Shown here one piece after another: positions 4,839-54,817 of a stretch of 64,000 bases of DNA (position 1 is its first letter; every line of letters begins with the position of its first letter). The stretch is taken from positions 1-64,000 of the forward strand of contig NZ_MJAP01000033.1 in the NCBI RefSeq assembly GCF_001884735.1, written 5' to 3'. Made by a program: the position numbers and the translations under genes. Below the pieces are notes generated by a model. That model had not been told where the DNA came from. It made no database searches and saw nothing but the letters and a program-made list of their open reading frames with translations. Source of the stretch: Natronohydrobacter thiooxidans (GTDB lineage: Bacteria; Pseudomonadota; Alphaproteobacteria; Rhodobacterales; Rhodobacteraceae).

Positions 4839-7102
4839 TTCTTCTCCTCCTTGGTGGCGCGCATCCCCTTGAGCAGCACGAAGGCGCCCAGGGCCGCGAT
4901 CAGCACCACGGCAATCTCGCCGAATGTGTCGAGCGTGCGGAAGTCCACAAGGATCACATTGACGATGTTGCGTCCGAAGGCCTGCGTCCAGCTTGCGCCC
5001 TCGAAAAACTCGGTCAGGCGGCGGTCAAAGGGCTGATCGACGACCAAGAGCAGAACCCATGTCGTCAGCGCGCCGACCGCAATCGCGAGAACCGCATTCG
5101 GGAAGCTGTGTTTCTGCACATTGCCCTTGTCGAGATAGGGCATTTTCAGCAGCGCGAGCGCCAGCAGCACCACCACCAGCAATTCGACCAGAAGCTGCGT
5201 GATGGCGACATCCGGGGCCGAATAGGTGATGAAGACCAGCGCCACGCCGATCCCCACGGTCCCGAGCCCCACCAGCGCCGTGATCCGCGATGAGGTCATC
5301 AGCACCAGCACAGTGCCCGCCGTGATCAGCGCCGCGATGCCCCATTCCATGATCCCCAGACCACTGAAACTCACCCGCAAGGGACCGGCCCCGCGCGCGA
5401 CCAGCGTGACAAGCACGGTCACGGCAAAGACCGTGAAGGTCGCGAACATGTACTGGCGCAGCACGCCGGTCTGGATCAGCCCTGTCTGGACCTTGGAGAA
5501 GCGCACGAACCAGTCGAGGAAGCGATCCCAGCTTGCATCGAGATCGGGCGATTTCGCCTCGATCCGCGCAAGGCGTTCGCGCAGGGACTGGTGGCGCAGA
5601 TAGATCAGGAAGCCGAGGGCGAAGGTCACAAGGCTGAGCAGAAGCGCCATGTTGAACCCGGCCCAGAGCTTGACGCGGCCCCCACGATCCGGTGCGCCCA
5701 TGACGGCATGAACCGCAGGCTCGATCAGATAATGGGCGGCGATGCCCGGCATCAGGCCGAACAGCAGGCCCAGCACGCCCAGCACCACCGGCCCCAGCAG
5801 CATGGGCCAGGGGCCTTCATGCGGGGCATGGGGCAACTCGCCCTGCGGGCCGTAGAAGGGTTTGTAGGCCACGATCCCGGCGACCGCGAACATCAGCGCG
5901 AAGGCGATCAGCGCCATCGGCACGACGAAAAGCCACAGATGCATCTCCAGCGCGCCGGAATAGGCGACCTCTTTGGCGATGAAGCCAAGGAAGGGCGGGA
6001 TACCGGCCATGGCAAGGCCCGCGACCGCCGCAGCCATGGCGGTGATCGGCATGGCCTTTTTCAGGCCGCCCAGCAGATTCGCGTCGCGCGTGCCGGTGGC
6101 ATGGTCAATCACGCCGATGGTGAGAAACAGCCCTGCCTTGTAGAGCGAATGCACCAGCAGGAAGGTCATGGCGGCGGTGATTGCATAGCCGGTGCTGCCC
6201 GCAAGGAACATGACCAGCGTGCCGAGCGCCATCAGCGTGGTATAGGCCAGCGTCTGTTTCAGATCGGTCTGGCGCAGCGCCATCAGCGAGGCGAAAACCG
6301 CCGTCACCGCCCCGAAGATCGAGAGGATCCAGATCCACAGATCCGAGCCGGAGAGGGCGGGATGGGTGCGCGCCAGCAGATAGACACCGGCTTTGACCAT
6401 GGTGGCCGAGTGCAGATAGGCCGAGACCGGGGTGGGCGCGGCCATGGCATTGGGCAACCAGAAATGGAACGGCACCTGCGCGGATTTGGTGAAGGCACCC
6501 GCCAACACCAGAAACAGGATCAGCGTGTAGAATTCCTTGCCCACAAGGCTGCCTGCCGCGTTGATCTGCGACATCTCGAAACTGCCCTGCGTGACGCCCA
6601 TCAGGATGAAGCCCGCCAGCAGCGCAAGCCCCCCGGTCGCGGTCAGCAGCAGGGCCTGCAGCGCATTGCGCCGCGATTTCGGGTCGGCATGGCCGAAGCC
6701 GATCAGCAGGTAAGAGGTGAAAGTCGTCAATTCCCAGAACACGAACAGCGCAATCAGGTTATCGGCCAGCACCACGCCCAGCATCGAGAGCATGAAGGCA
6801 AAGAGATAGAGCGCGAAACGGTCATATTGCGGATGGCCCGCGAGATATTTCGCTGCGTAAAGCATCACCAGAGCACCGATCCCGGTGATCAGCAGCGCGA
6901 ACATCAGGCTCAGCCCGTCGATCCAGAAGGACAGATGCACATCGAGCGAGGGGATCCAGGGGATCACCCAGCGCACGGGCTCGCCAGCGGCGACGGTCGG
7001 CAGATATTGAAGGAAAAACAGGAAAAGCGCTGCAGTGATTGCGGTCGTGCCGATGCCGGAAAGGGTTTTCCAGGGGGCGTTGGGGTCCGAATGTTCCGCC
7101 AT
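4835..7102 (-). CDS. mrpA: Na+/H+ antiporter subunit MrpA (NuoL-like)
   Basis: A 755-aa protein and the largest Mrp subunit. The N-terminal two thirds are NuoL-like (FWELTTFTSYLLIGF, the THPALSG region, MKAGVYLLAR-type helix). The C-terminal part carries the DUF4040 segment (APDVAITQLLVELLVVVLL) and the MbhE-like end (FRTLDTFGEIAVVLIAALG). The start MAEHSDPN at 7102 is preceded by AGGAG with a rather long 13-base gap. An upstream in-frame ATG at 7141 has no ribosome-binding site. This is the first gene of the operon, and the 289 bases before it separate it from a divergent pair. Confidence 0.94.
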   Translation of the reverse strand: MAEHSDPNAPWKTLSGIGTTAITAALFLFFLQYLPTVAAGEPVRWVIPWIPSLDVHLSFWIDGLSLMFALLITGIGALVMLYAAKYLAGHPQYDRFALYLFAFMLSMLGVVLADNLIALFVFWELTTFTSYLLIGFGHADPKSRRNALQALLLTATGGLALLAGFILMGVTQGSFEMSQINAAGSLVGKEFYTLILFLVLAGAFTKSAQVPFHFWLPNAMAAPTPVSAYLHSATMVKAGVYLLARTHPALSGSDLWIWILSIFGAVTAVFASLMALRQTDLKQTLAYTTLMALGTLVMFLAGSTGYAITAAMTFLLVHSLYKAGLFLTIGVIDHATGTRDANLLGGLKKAMPITAMAAAVAGLAMAGIPPFLGFIAKEVAYSGALEMHLWLFVVPMALIAFALMFAVAGIVAYKPFYGPQGELPHAPHEGPWPMLLGPVVLGVLGLLFGLMPGIAAHYLIEPAVHAVMGAPDRGGRVKLWAGFNMALLLSLVTFALGFLIYLRHQSLRERLARIEAKSPDLDASWDRFLDWFVRFSKVQTGLIQTGVLRQYMFATFTVFAVTVLVTLVARGAGPLRVSFSGLGIMEWGIAALITAGTVLVLMTSSRITALVGLGTVGIGVALVFITYSAPDVAITQLLVELLVVVLLALALLKMPYLDKGNVQKHSFPNAVLAIAVGALTTWVLLLVVDQPFDRRLTEFFEGASWTQAFGRNIVNVILVDFRTLDTFGEIAVVLIAALGAFVLLKGMRATKEEKK

Positions 7103-9775: not shown

Positions 9776-10536
9776 CAGATCACCCCTGCTTCGTCTTTGA
9801 GTTTCGCCACCAGCTCATCCACCGATCCGACCTTGACGCCAGCCGCGCGCGCCGCCGGTTCTGTGGTCTTGATCACGCTCAGGCGCGGGCTGACATCGAC
9901 GCCGTAATCGGCGGGCGTTTTTTCATCGAGCGGCTTTTTCTTCGCCTTCATGATATTCGGAAGCGAGGCATAGCGCGGCTCGTTCAGGCGCAGATCCACC
10001 GAGATGATCGCGGGCAGCTTGACCTTGATCGTCTGTAGACCGCCATCGACTTCGCGCGTCACGGTGGCGCTGTCGCCATCGATGCTGACGCCGGAAGCAA
10101 AAGTCGCCTGCGCCCAGCCGGTCAGCGCGGCCAGCATCTGGCCGGTCGCGTTCATGTCATTGTCGATCGCCTGCTTGCCGCAGAGCACCAGACCCGGCGC
10201 TTCCGCGTCGATCACCGCTTTCAGCAGCTTGGCGACGGCCAGCGGCTCGATATCGGTATGCACATCATCCGCGGCCACGATCAGGATGGCGCGATCCGCC
10301 CCCATCGCCAGCGCTGTGCGCAGGGTTTCCTGCGCCTGTTTCACGCCGATGGACACTGCCACGATTTCCGACGCGACGCCTTTTTCCTTCAAGCGGATTG
10401 CCTCTTCCACGGCAATCTCGTCAAACGGGTTCATCGACATCTTCACATTCGCCAGATCGACCCCGCTGCCATCCGCTTTCACACGGACTTTCACGTTATA
10501 GTCGATCACGCGCTTGACCGGCACGAGTACCTTCAT
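9775..10536 (-). CDS. etfB: Electron transfer flavoprotein, beta subunit
   Basis: A 253-aa beta subunit of ETF beginning [20 protein letters not shown]. It has the AMP-binding region (GADRAILI) and the [22 protein letters not shown] recognition region used for docking to dehydrogenases. The ATG follows GAGGGAG with a long gap. It is the first gene of etfBA and lies 120 bases downstream of the cobalamin adenosyltransferase gene on the same strand, a neighbourhood common in Rhodobacteraceae. Confidence 0.96.
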
Positions 10537-51943: not shown

Positions 51944-53401
51944 ATGTCGGTCGCGATCCGGTTTGAAAACAGCTATGCCGAGGAATTGCAGGGGCTTTAC
52001 CTGCCCTGGCAGGGTCAGGACTGGCCCGATCCGCAGGTGCTGCTGCTGAACACGGCTCTTGCCGAACGCCTCGGCCTTGATGCGCAGGCGTTGCAGGGCG
52101 ATGCAGGTGCGCAGTTGCTGACCGGGCAGGGGCTTCCCGCAAGCGCGCGCCCGCTGGCGCAAGCCTATGCGGGCCATCAGTTCGGCGGCTTCTCACCCCA
52201 GCTTGGGGATGGGCGCGCGCTGCTGCTGGGCGAGATTGTTGATCCGCAGGGCCAGCGCCACGACCTGCATCTGAAAGGCTCTGGCCGCACGCCCTTTGCA
52301 CGCGGCGGCGACGGCCGGGCCGTGCTGGGGCCGGTGCTGCGCGAATACCTGATCTCAGAGGCGATGCACGCGCTGGGCGTGCCCACCACCCGCGCGCTGG
52401 CGGTCTGCACCACGGGCGACCGGGTGCTGCGCCAGAACGGGCTGGAGCCCGGCGCCGTGCTGGCGCGCACGGCCGCCAGCCATCTGCGGGTCGGCACCTT
52501 CCAGTTCTTCGCGGCGCGCGGCGAGGGCGACAAGTTGCGCCTGTTGCTGGAGTACGCGATTGCGCGCCATGACCCGGATTTGAGCGGGGCCGATGATGCG
52601 GCATTACGCTTTCTGGAGCGTGTGGGCGCGCGTCAGGCGCGGCTGGTGGCGCAATGGATGGGGCTGGGCTTTGTCCATGGGGTGATGAACACCGACAATA
52701 TGACGATTTCGGGCGAAACCATCGATTATGGCCCCTGCGCTTTCATGGAGGGCTATGATCCTGCGACCGTGTTCAGTTCCATCGACCATCAGGGCCGCTA
52801 TGCCTATGGCAACCAGCCCGCGATCCTCTTGTGGAACCTTGCGCGGCTGGCCGAGGCTTTGCTGGGGCTGATTGATGCGGATGAGACGCGCGCCATCGCA
52901 AGGGCAAGCGAGGTGATCGAGGCCACGCGCGCGCGCTACCGCGAGGAATGGCTGGGGGTTTTCGCGGCCAAACTGGGGTTGCGTGACCCCGATGCCGGTC
53001 TGATCGAGGCGATGCACGCGCTCTGGACCGGGCAGGGGGTGGATTTCACCTCGTTTTTCCGCGCTTTGCCGCAGGTCTTGGGGGGTGATGACAGCGCTGT
53101 GGCGGCGCTTTTCCAAGCGCCTGATCAGGCGCTGGCTGACTGGCTCAGGGACTATCGCGCGGCCTTTCTGGCGCAGGCTGGGGATGTGGCGCAGCTTGAT
53201 GCGGTGAACCCGCTCTATATCCCGCGCAATCATCTGGTCGAAGCGGCGCTAGCCGCCGCCTCGGATCAGGGTGATATGGCCCCTTTCCTTGCGCTTCTGG
53301 AGCGGGTTCAGGCCCCGTTCACCGAGGTTTCGGGGGCAGATGACTATGCCCGCCCCGCCCCCGGGGATGCGCCGAAAATCGTGACCTTTTGCGGGACATG
53401 A
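51944..53401 (+). CDS. selO: Protein adenylyltransferase SelO
   Basis: A 485-aa pseudokinase-fold enzyme of the SelO/YdiU family, which AMPylates proteins in redox stress. Seen are YAGHQFGGFSPQLGDGRA, LHLKGSGRTPFARGGDGRA, GVMNTDNMTISGETIDYGPCAF and the C-terminal cysteine in VTFCGT that replaces selenocysteine. AGGAG precedes the ATG. Placed after msrB, it fits an oxidative-damage theme. Confidence 0.94.
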   Translation: MSVAIRFENSYAEELQGLYLPWQGQDWPDPQVLLLNTALAERLGLDAQALQGDAGAQLLTGQGLPASARPLAQAYAGHQFGGFSPQLGDGRALLLGEIVDPQGQRHDLHLKGSGRTPFARGGDGRAVLGPVLREYLISEAMHALGVPTTRALAVCTTGDRVLRQNGLEPGAVLARTAASHLRVGTFQFFAARGEGDKLRLLLEYAIARHDPDLSGADDAALRFLERVGARQARLVAQWMGLGFVHGVMNTDNMTISGETIDYGPCAFMEGYDPATVFSSIDHQGRYAYGNQPAILLWNLARLAEALLGLIDADETRAIARASEVIEATRARYREEWLGVFAAKLGLRDPDAGLIEAMHALWTGQGVDFTSFFRALPQVLGGDDSAVAALFQAPDQALADWLRDYRAAFLAQAGDVAQLDAVNPLYIPRNHLVEAALAAASDQGDMAPFLALLERVQAPFTEVSGADDYARPAPGDAPKIVTFCGT

Positions 53402-53446
53402 CCGGGCGGCGACCGGGGCGGAAGGCTCGGGGGGGCCACGCCGTTG

Positions 53447-53834
53447 AATCGCCCCCCCGCGCGTGCGGGAGTGAATGGCGAAACCACTCAAGCCTGACGA
53501 TGCGCAGCGCCCCCGTGCGCGCGGGTAGGCCACTGACCGCACAATCGTCCCGTCAGCCCGCACATGATCGCGCCCGCGCGCGCGGGCACGCCATGCTGTA
53601 GCGCCGCGCTATAGATCGCGTGGGATCGCCCCTGCGCGCGTGCGGGGCACACCCAACACGCCATTCGGAAAGGACAAGCCATGAGATTGCTCCCGCGCGT
53701 GCGGGACACGAGGTCTGCCAGTGGCGCAGGGACTGCATGAAGCGGTGCGCCCCCCGCGCGCGCGGGGCGCACCGGAGTCGTTCCCCTCTGCGCAGCTTAC
53801 GCATGGCTCGCCCCTCGCGCGTGCGGGGCGCACC
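53447..53834 (-). CRISPR. Degenerate type I-E-like CRISPR array, seven diverged repeats
   Basis: Seven copies of a 29-30-base GC-rich palindromic unit begin near 53447, 53503, 53564, 53624, 53683, 53744 and 53805; spacings are 56, 61, 60, 59, 61 and 61. The best copies (6 and 7) read GGTGCGCCCC...GCGGGGCGCACC and GGCTCGCCCC...GCGGGGCGCACC, much like the reverse complement of type I-E repeats. Intervening 30-32-base stretches are all different. Copies decay toward 53447, so the old end would be there. No leader or cas gene is seen; the array sits 26 bases from rpoH. Confidence 0.6.
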
Positions 53835-53860
53835 CGAAAACCCGGGTTGCGCCTTGCCCG

Positions 53861-54757
53861 TCAGTTGACCGGCACCACCATGCCCTTTTCGCGCGCCAAT
53901 GTGCGCATCCGGCCCTGCAGCTTCTCGAAGGCGCGGACCTCGATCTGGCGGATCCGCTCGCGGCTCACATCATAGCGCTGCGACAGATCTTCCAGCGTCA
54001 CTGGCTCGTCGCTCAGGCGGCGCTGGGTCAGCACGTCGCGCTCGCGCTCATTGAGCACATCCATCGCTTCCATCAGCAATTCGCGGCGCAGTTCCAGCTC
54101 GTCGCGTTCGGCGTAATCGGCGGCCTGATCGGCATCCTCGTCTTCGAGCCAGTCCTGCCAGCTTGACGCGCCTTCCTCGCTGCCCATCGTGGCATTGAGC
54201 GAGGAATCGCTGCCCGAGAGGCGGCGGTTCATCGAGATGACCTCATCCTCGGTCACATTCAGATCCCGTGCGATCCGGGCCACATTTTCCGGGCGCATAT
54301 CGCCCTCTTCCAGCGCGCCAAGCTTGGATTTCGCCTTGCGCAGGTTGAAGAACAGCTTTTTCTGCGCGCTGGTCGTGCCCAGTTTCACCAGAGACCAGGA
54401 CCGCAGGATATATTCCTGAATCGATGCCCGGATCCACCACATCGCATAGGTGGCCAGCCGGAATCCCTTGTCCGGGTCAAAGCGTTTGACCGCCTGCATC
54501 AGCCCGACATTGGCTTCCGAGATCACCTCGGCCTGCGGCAGGCCGTAGCCGCGATAGCCCATCGCGATCTTGGCGGCGAGGCGCAGATGCGATGTCACCA
54601 GCTTATGCGCGGCATCCGTGTCCTGATGGTCGACCCAGCGCTTGGCCAGCATGAATTCCTCTTCCGGTTCCAGCATGGGGAAGCGGCGGATTTCCTGCAT
54701 ATAGCGGTTCAGACCCTGTTCGGGGCTGGGGGCTGGAAGATTGGCATAGCTGCTCAT
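53861..54757 (-). CDS. rpoH: Heat-shock sigma factor RpoH (RpoHI type)
   Basis: A 298-aa sigma-32. Region 2 contains KRWVDHQDTDAAHKLVTSHLRLAAKIA and ATYAMWWIRASIQEYILRSWSLVK. The RpoH box (TSAQKKLFFNLR) and region 4 (LSDEPVTLEDLSQRYDVSRERIRQIEVRAFEKL) follow. The sequence is closer to RpoHI than RpoHII of Rhodobacter. The ATG at 54757 is preceded by AGGA; a longer frame was rejected. Confidence 0.95.
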   Translation of the reverse strand: MSSYANLPAPSPEQGLNRYMQEIRRFPMLEPEEEFMLAKRWVDHQDTDAAHKLVTSHLRLAAKIAMGYRGYGLPQAEVISEANVGLMQAVKRFDPDKGFRLATYAMWWIRASIQEYILRSWSLVKLGTTSAQKKLFFNLRKAKSKLGALEEGDMRPENVARIARDLNVTEDEVISMNRRLSGSDSSLNATMGSEEGASSWQDWLEDEDADQAADYAERDELELRRELLMEAMDVLNERERDVLTQRRLSDEPVTLEDLSQRYDVSRERIRQIEVRAFEKLQGRMRTLAREKGMVVPVN

Positions 54758-54788
54758 AAAAACATCCTGTCCAAAGGGCCGACATTTG

Positions 54789-54817
54789 CAGATAGGAACG
54801 CGATCCTGCGCCTGCAA
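54789..54817 (-). promoter_or_regulatory. Possible promoter of rpoH
   Basis: On the minus strand TTGCAG (54817-54812) and TATCTG (54794-54789) lie 17 bases apart, about 30 bases before the rpoH start. Both match the consensus only partly. Confidence 0.35.

Follow-up and report, generated by a model that had tools for sequence, protein, structure and literature searches.

The gap between two convergent genes of Natronohydrobacter thiooxidans, selO and rpoH, contains seven GC-rich hairpin units that are regularly spaced and separated by stretches of unrelated sequence. We consider these units to be, more likely than not, the remains of a dead, orphan CRISPR array of I-E-like build, the palindromes of which would have persisted via template-switch repair or weak selection. 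In its present state, the array is probably a relic that no longer works.

Layout of the seven units

The cores of the units start at 53462, 53518, 53579, 53639, 53698, 53759, and 53820 of the window, which is the whole 64,000-nt stretch of DNA analyzed here. The steps from core to core measure 56, 61, 60, 59, 61, and 61 nt, in agreement with the initial annotation, which had described seven palindromic units at 56-61-base steps, four of the six being 60-61. The distance of 26 bases that it gave between the array and rpoH was also confirmed (end of unit 7, ~53834, to the rpoH stop, 53861), and ~46 nt lie between the array and the selO stop. As unit 7 adjoins rpoH, it would be the first unit if the array were read on the minus strand. 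The features of the region are as follows.

51944..53401, plus strand: selO (protein adenylyltransferase SelO), convergent neighbor
53448..53478, minus strand: unit 1, the 14-nt core of which equals part of one I-E repeat (L054); top I-E model score among the units, 17.9 bits
53479..53505, unstranded: spacer-like stretch 1, shortened (step 56)
53506..53534, minus strand: unit 2, weak, with one stem mismatch
53535..53567, unstranded: spacer-like stretch 2; by eye, its edge shows CTGAC...GTCAG as an inverted repeat (53530-53560)
53568..53596, minus strand: unit 3, the own flanks of which lengthen the stem to ~13 pairs
53597..53625, unstranded: spacer-like stretch 3
53626..53656, minus strand: unit 4, with a 2-nt insertion within the 3' arm
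53657..53686, unstranded: spacer-like stretch 4, reading GAAAGGACAAGCCATG on the plus strand, like a ribosome site plus a start codon (by eye)
53687..53715, minus strand: unit 5, the 14-nt core of which equals part of one I-E repeat (L054)
53716..53745, unstranded: spacer-like stretch 5
53746..53776, minus strand: unit 6, an extended near-perfect palindrome, GGTGCGCC...GGCGCACC
53777..53807, unstranded: spacer-like stretch 6
53808..53838, minus strand: unit 7, GTGCGC-CCCGC-ACGC-GCGAGGGGCGAGCC, closest to rpoH
53861..54817, minus strand: sigma-70-family gene (regions 1.2, 2, and 4), the rpoH of the initial annotation; convergent neighbor, the transcript of which would head towards the array

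On the minus strand, the unit core reads CCCGC-RCGC-GCGGG, and 11 columns are invariant in the alignment of the units (A1). Such an arrangement is rare in random sequence of like composition: when the intergenic region was copied 20,000 times under a first-order Markov model and searched with a core pattern picked from these same units, a copy had 0.29 cores on average and 4 at most, and neither seven cores nor four steps of 59-61 occurred in any copy. The region shows the regular spacing and the non-repetitive stretches of like length that are typical of a CRISPR array (steps 56-61). The stretches between the units are unrelated, as the initial annotation had stated, with a mutual similarity no higher than that of their own shuffles (258/1000 shuffles as high). 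A tandem 60-bp duplication followed by divergence was rejected because these stretches are unrelated, and a repeated-peptide gene was rejected by inspection because the steps keep no reading frame. Outside the cores, the 3' flank near GGGCGATC.CATG is common to the units beyond chance (as high in 0/1000 shuffles and 3/1000 genomic draws), and the 5' flank shows no sharing beyond chance (246/1000 shuffles and 392/1000 genomic draws as high). A search against known Rfam RNAs gave eight matches at E<=10, the best at E 0.14 and none at the gathering score.

The near-identity among repeats that is expected of a CRISPR array was not found, the mean column identity in alignment A1 being 68%. The decay is uneven across the repeat, with the cores kept and the ends lost. 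Deviating cells make up 7/98 of the cores versus 43/98 of the flanks (Fisher p 2.6e-9, a value inflated because counts anchored on the core favor the core and single-base shifts inflate the flank deviations). This low identity resembles that of the degenerate arrays treated by CRISPRDetect, for which the quoted part of the source gives a default trimming cut-off of 66% (PMC4869251), close to the 68% here; going by that same part, the present case differs in that the degeneration hits all of the units and spares the cores.

Similarity to type I-E repeats

For comparison, 13 Cse1 loci of the 15 hits in other genera of the family were fetched, with the surroundings of G384 and of the sub-threshold G071 left out, and an array was visible at 11 of the 13. 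In these 11 I-E arrays, the modal step is 61 and the 29-nt repeats follow the pattern [CG][TC]GTTCCCCG....CGGGGATGA.CCG; two congeneric I-E arrays, with repeats GCGTTCCCCGCCCCCGCGGGGATGAACCG and mostly CTGTTCCCCGCCCACGCGGGGATGATCCG, also have a prevailing step of 61. In the region between selO and rpoH, the I-E step of 61 (29 + 32 nt) appears in three of the six steps, with 59-60 in two and 56 in one. The units share with the family and genus arrays (L054, L055, G018, and G033) the step of ~61 nt, the 29-nt size class of the repeat, a core of the CCCGC-N4-GCGGG kind, and unrelated spacers. They differ from these arrays in that the repeats are unlike one another, the GTTC and ATGA.CCG ends are undetectable, and Cse1 and Cas7e were not found.

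One of the congeneric arrays (G018; L183, ~base 6247, reverse strand) ends on one side in a worn repeat, an instance of natural end decay within the genus.

A covariance model, R2, was made from the 11 I-E repeats with the window excluded from the building. On the 64-kb window, its four best hits fell on unit 1, on both strands of unit 6, and on unit 5; all but one of the seven units appeared at E<=10, but the non-unit places 53350, 34777, and 42381 outscored units 3, 4, and 7. All seven units were reached on the local 651 bases with the filters off. R2 ranked them in the order 1 (17.9 bits), 6, 5, 3, 4, 2, and 7 (8.5 bits), and its matches were restricted to the cores, except in unit 4, the sole unit that aligned with the model across all 29 positions (10.2 bits). 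Genome-wide, with 150 of 13787 candidates scored, the best unit had an E of 1.3 and ranked third behind two unrelated places, so each unit alone stands at chance level; the hairpin core is that of the family's I-E repeats, but it is not significant genome-wide unit by unit.

Taken together, the units align with I-E repeats better than with shuffled versions of those repeats (sum 100 versus 64.5, sd 3.1; 0/300 shuffles as good), where the shuffles are not palindromic and the I-E score is the best of 12 repeats. The 14-nt cores of two of the seven units, 1 and 5, occur unchanged within the L054 I-E repeat, compared with 0.29% of random GC hairpins. Beyond the cores, the likeness ends: the unit flanks are no closer to the I-E flanks than shuffles are (237/1000 and 942/1000 as good), leaving the GTTC and ATGA.CCG ends undetectable, and an ungapped I-E matrix did not single out the units, the best of which scored 9.5, below an unrelated place at 13.2. 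A hand-made consensus found nothing at <=3 mismatches in 398 Pseudomonadota genomes and nothing in the own genome, indicating that no unit lies within three mismatches of it. The type I-E label of the initial annotation is therefore only partly supported: it holds for the period and the hairpin core, which match the family and genus I-E arrays, and fails for the repeat ends, and a close match to I-E repeats is not supported. Judged on these sequence comparisons, the array may be called I-E-like by step and core, and not a member of I-E.

The same measurements do not reproduce the gradient described in the initial annotation, which held copies 6 and 7 to be well kept and copies 1 and 2 to be eroded at a leader-distal end. 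Under R1, a second covariance model that was made from the seven units and so ranks the very sequences it was trained on, the units come in the order 7, 1, 4, 5, 3, 6, and 2 (32.6 to 27.7 bits). Unit 1 is the best with R2 and the second with R1, unit 7 is the lowest with R2 and the best with R1, and unit 2 is weak in both; no gradient appears with either model, and unit 1 is not weak.

cas genes and the resident type I-C system

Neither Cse1 nor Cas7e was matched in the own genome by models whose reach is not universal, as neither gave a match in the E. coli control. The I-E cas search covered Cse1, Cas7e, and Cas1. Cse1 passed the cut-off in two of 37 genus genomes and 14 of 295 family genomes, which makes an I-E ancestor or donor plausible. 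The claim that the array is CRISPR-like and orphan agrees with these results and with the lack of any such cluster in the congeners.

The genome has a single Cas1, of type I-C. It belongs to a locus on contig C32 (L034, G000:C32:15262-35261) that encodes Cas1c, Cas4, Cas7/Csd2, Cas8c/Csd1, Cas5c, and Cas3, beside which stands an array of 30 repeats of 32 nt with a step of 65-68 nt and the repeat GTTTCAATCCGCGCCCCCGGGTGGGGGGCGAC; the copy at 9826 is a variant. The seven units do not belong to this array, since the repeat differs and the step is 56-61 versus 65-68 nt. It is accordingly very improbable that the units descend from an I-C array akin to that of the resident locus. The resident repeat is also a GC-rich hairpin, and the units align with it better than with its shuffles (72 versus 48.4, 0/300), and the end of unit 1, GGGGCGATTCAACG, is faintly like GCGGATTGAAAC (by eye), but that score, from a single I-C repeat and against shuffles that are not palindromic, is below the I-E score of 100, and the step is not 65-68.

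The resident locus also bears on whether the array could still be alive, with the I-C system, or an I-E system of outside origin, serving its crRNAs in trans, as the suggestion of immune memory served in trans in the initial annotation would have it. An I-C locus with 30 repeats is indeed present in the genome, and orphan arrays acting in trans are known from the anti-cas I-F arrays of E. coli, as far as the available part of that source describes them (PMC8616872). However, the resident system has a repeat unlike that of the units and a different step, Cse1 and Cas7e matches are absent, the repeats are too dissimilar for one handle, and the spacer matches to 16 cas loci are no better than those of shuffles; we give a live array almost no credence.

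A regulatory role under Cascade for ectopic degenerate repeats, as in the CreTA toxin-antitoxin modules, is just as improbable. Degenerate repeats are common in modules of this type, which, in the excerpted account (PMC9458426), carry in most cases no more than one or two repeats and act specifically with the CRISPR-Cas locus to which they are linked. Here there are seven units, and Cse1 was not found in the genome.

Spacer-like stretches

No protospacers were found for the six spacer-like stretches. They gave no match to plasmids at E<=0.1, and among phages the best match was to a single phage, present in two records, at E 0.5. Exact 20-mers from the six matched none of the IMG/VR viral contigs (0/6), a search that worn spacers would escape. 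Spacers directed against cas genes were rejected, as the best matches in the 16 cas loci (I-E and resident I-C) were 10-14 exact bases, within the range of shuffles. From its ribosome-site-like sequence and start codon, stretch 4 may stem from the beginning of a foreign gene.

Folding of the units and the transcript ends

On the minus strand, the units fold at -124.5 versus -100.3 kcal/mol with shuffled flanks (0/300 as good; 14/300 on the plus strand), which we count in favor of the relic reading. Besides the CRISPR reading, the units might be plain stem-loops at the place where the convergent selO and rpoH transcripts meet, stopping or protecting the mRNA 3' ends, with the even spacing due to accident or to duplication and divergence. 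We regard this as unlikely, although several observations favor it. The stems are kept and the ends vary. Taken over all units, the native flanks pair somewhat better than flanks swapped among the units (121/5040 permutations as good). The minus strand of 53402-53870 folds better than its shuffles (z -2.33, 1/100). Six-pair GC hairpins number three in the region versus 0-2 in 26 relatives (26 loci of 29, three having been dropped for a match near a contig end), and a lone CCCCCGCGCGTGCGGGGG hairpin occurs in a congener (L154).

Against such stem-loops, the flank-swap result leans on units 3 and 6 (82/720 as good without unit 3 and 57/720 without unit 6); units 4 and 7 gain too, but for units 1, 2, and 5 the flanks of other units give a better fold than the native ones. 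Folded alone, the single units are unremarkable (z from -1.96 to 0.79). Five-pair hairpins do not set the region apart, with five here, 0-5 in the 26 relatives, and 21 of 277 window stretches reaching five. No intrinsic terminator site, a hairpin followed by a T-run, was found in the region, which also tells against the role as a transcript end proposed in the initial annotation, and stem-loops of this kind leave both the 61-nt step and the I-E core unexplained. No sigma-70 promoter-like site was found in the region either.

The idea that relatives conserve a hairpin-rich 3' end of rpoH was rejected on the five-pair hairpin counts.

An intermediate reading combines both origins, in which a dead array has turned into a structural 3' end, the palindromes being kept for the RNA hairpins they form, which would block or protect the two convergent transcripts, rpoH and selO, and units 3 and 6 having been lengthened by unit-specific pairing. 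We think this quite improbable.

Occurrence in the genome and its relatives

With 150 of 4232 candidates scored in the own genome, the seven units are the seven best hits of R1, and the other eight listed are scattered, with E >=1.06. Dispersed REP elements, which the initial annotation had named as an outcome against a CRISPR array, were rejected, as many scattered copies were not seen and the seven best R1 hits all lie in this single cluster. REP/BIME-type palindromes are GC-rich, intergenic, and near transcript ends; the units are alike in these respects and differ in forming one cluster instead of being dispersed.

The congeners belong to Natronohydrobacter and Roseinatronobacter. Across the 37 genus genomes, where 150 of thousands of candidates were scored per genome, R1 gave one or two weak hits in 14 genomes besides the own (16 in total, E 0.09-0.44), the pairs being on separate contigs. 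In the 295 family genomes, with 25 candidates scored per genome and stricter filters, single hits at E<=0.1 came from three others; of the seven units themselves, three pass at this setting. A pattern scan of 168 loci found chains of at least three units in this region, where the chain is 5, not 7, and otherwise only in I-E arrays. The papers listed on CRISPR in Roseinatronobacter mention no such array in their titles and abstract openings.

Among the matches listed, four relatives have selO beside rpoH, with gaps of ~450, 260, 160, and <20 nt, and neither inspection by eye nor the pattern revealed such units in these gaps. The gaps of G023, G026, and G003 showed no homology to the region (38/200, 125/200, and 96/200 shuffles as good, respectively). 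Conservation of the region as unique sequence in relatives, the other outcome that the initial annotation had set against an array, was thus not observed: four gaps lack the units, and the three longer ones do not align.

The selO-rpoH gap itself (here 53402-53860, ~460 nt; L004-L007) varies in length and sequence though the rpoH ends of the congeners are 88-91% identical to that of the window, marking it as a fast-changing spot.

Proposed origin and decay of the array

The dead-array reading begins with a short CRISPR array of I-E-like build, which would have had seven repeats of ~29 nt and spacers of ~32 nt and would have been stranded without its Cascade between the convergent selO and rpoH. 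Its function as immune memory would then have been lost; that the array does not work as such is suggested by repeats too unlike one another for a uniform crRNA handle, scant room for a leader, and the failure to find I-E Cse1 and Cas7e. The DNA between the repeats would have drifted. Kept cores with lost ends are not predicted by uniform neutral decay, which counts against the relic reading. Near-palindromes may have been mended towards perfection by template switching in replication, a process that can create and mend hairpins according to the part of the source at hand (PMC8794818), so that the cores would persist without selection. Alternatively, a hairpin-rich 3' end may have been mildly useful to the convergent transcripts, and the cores would have been kept by weak selection.

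Arrays that are remnants of a working system, or that stand separate from one, have counterparts in the vestigial locus of Haloquadratum walsbyi and in orphan arrays, as portrayed in the parts of those sources drawn on here (PMC3404096 and PMC8616872, respectively). The vestigial CRISPR locus of H. walsbyi, in the portion of the report concerned, has a homologous locus in a related strain (PMC3404096), whereas none was found here.

Knowledge of CRISPR immunity is unchanged by such a relic, and relic arrays are already known. If the structural 3'-end reading were true, CRISPR repeats would be a source from which new regulatory RNA can arise outside immunity. If the favored relic reading is right, the region would offer an example of how an array decays after the loss of cas genes, with the repeat ends and spacers going first and the palindromes last, and it would bear on the share of old arrays among the short, CRISPR-like clusters of palindromes that genomes contain.
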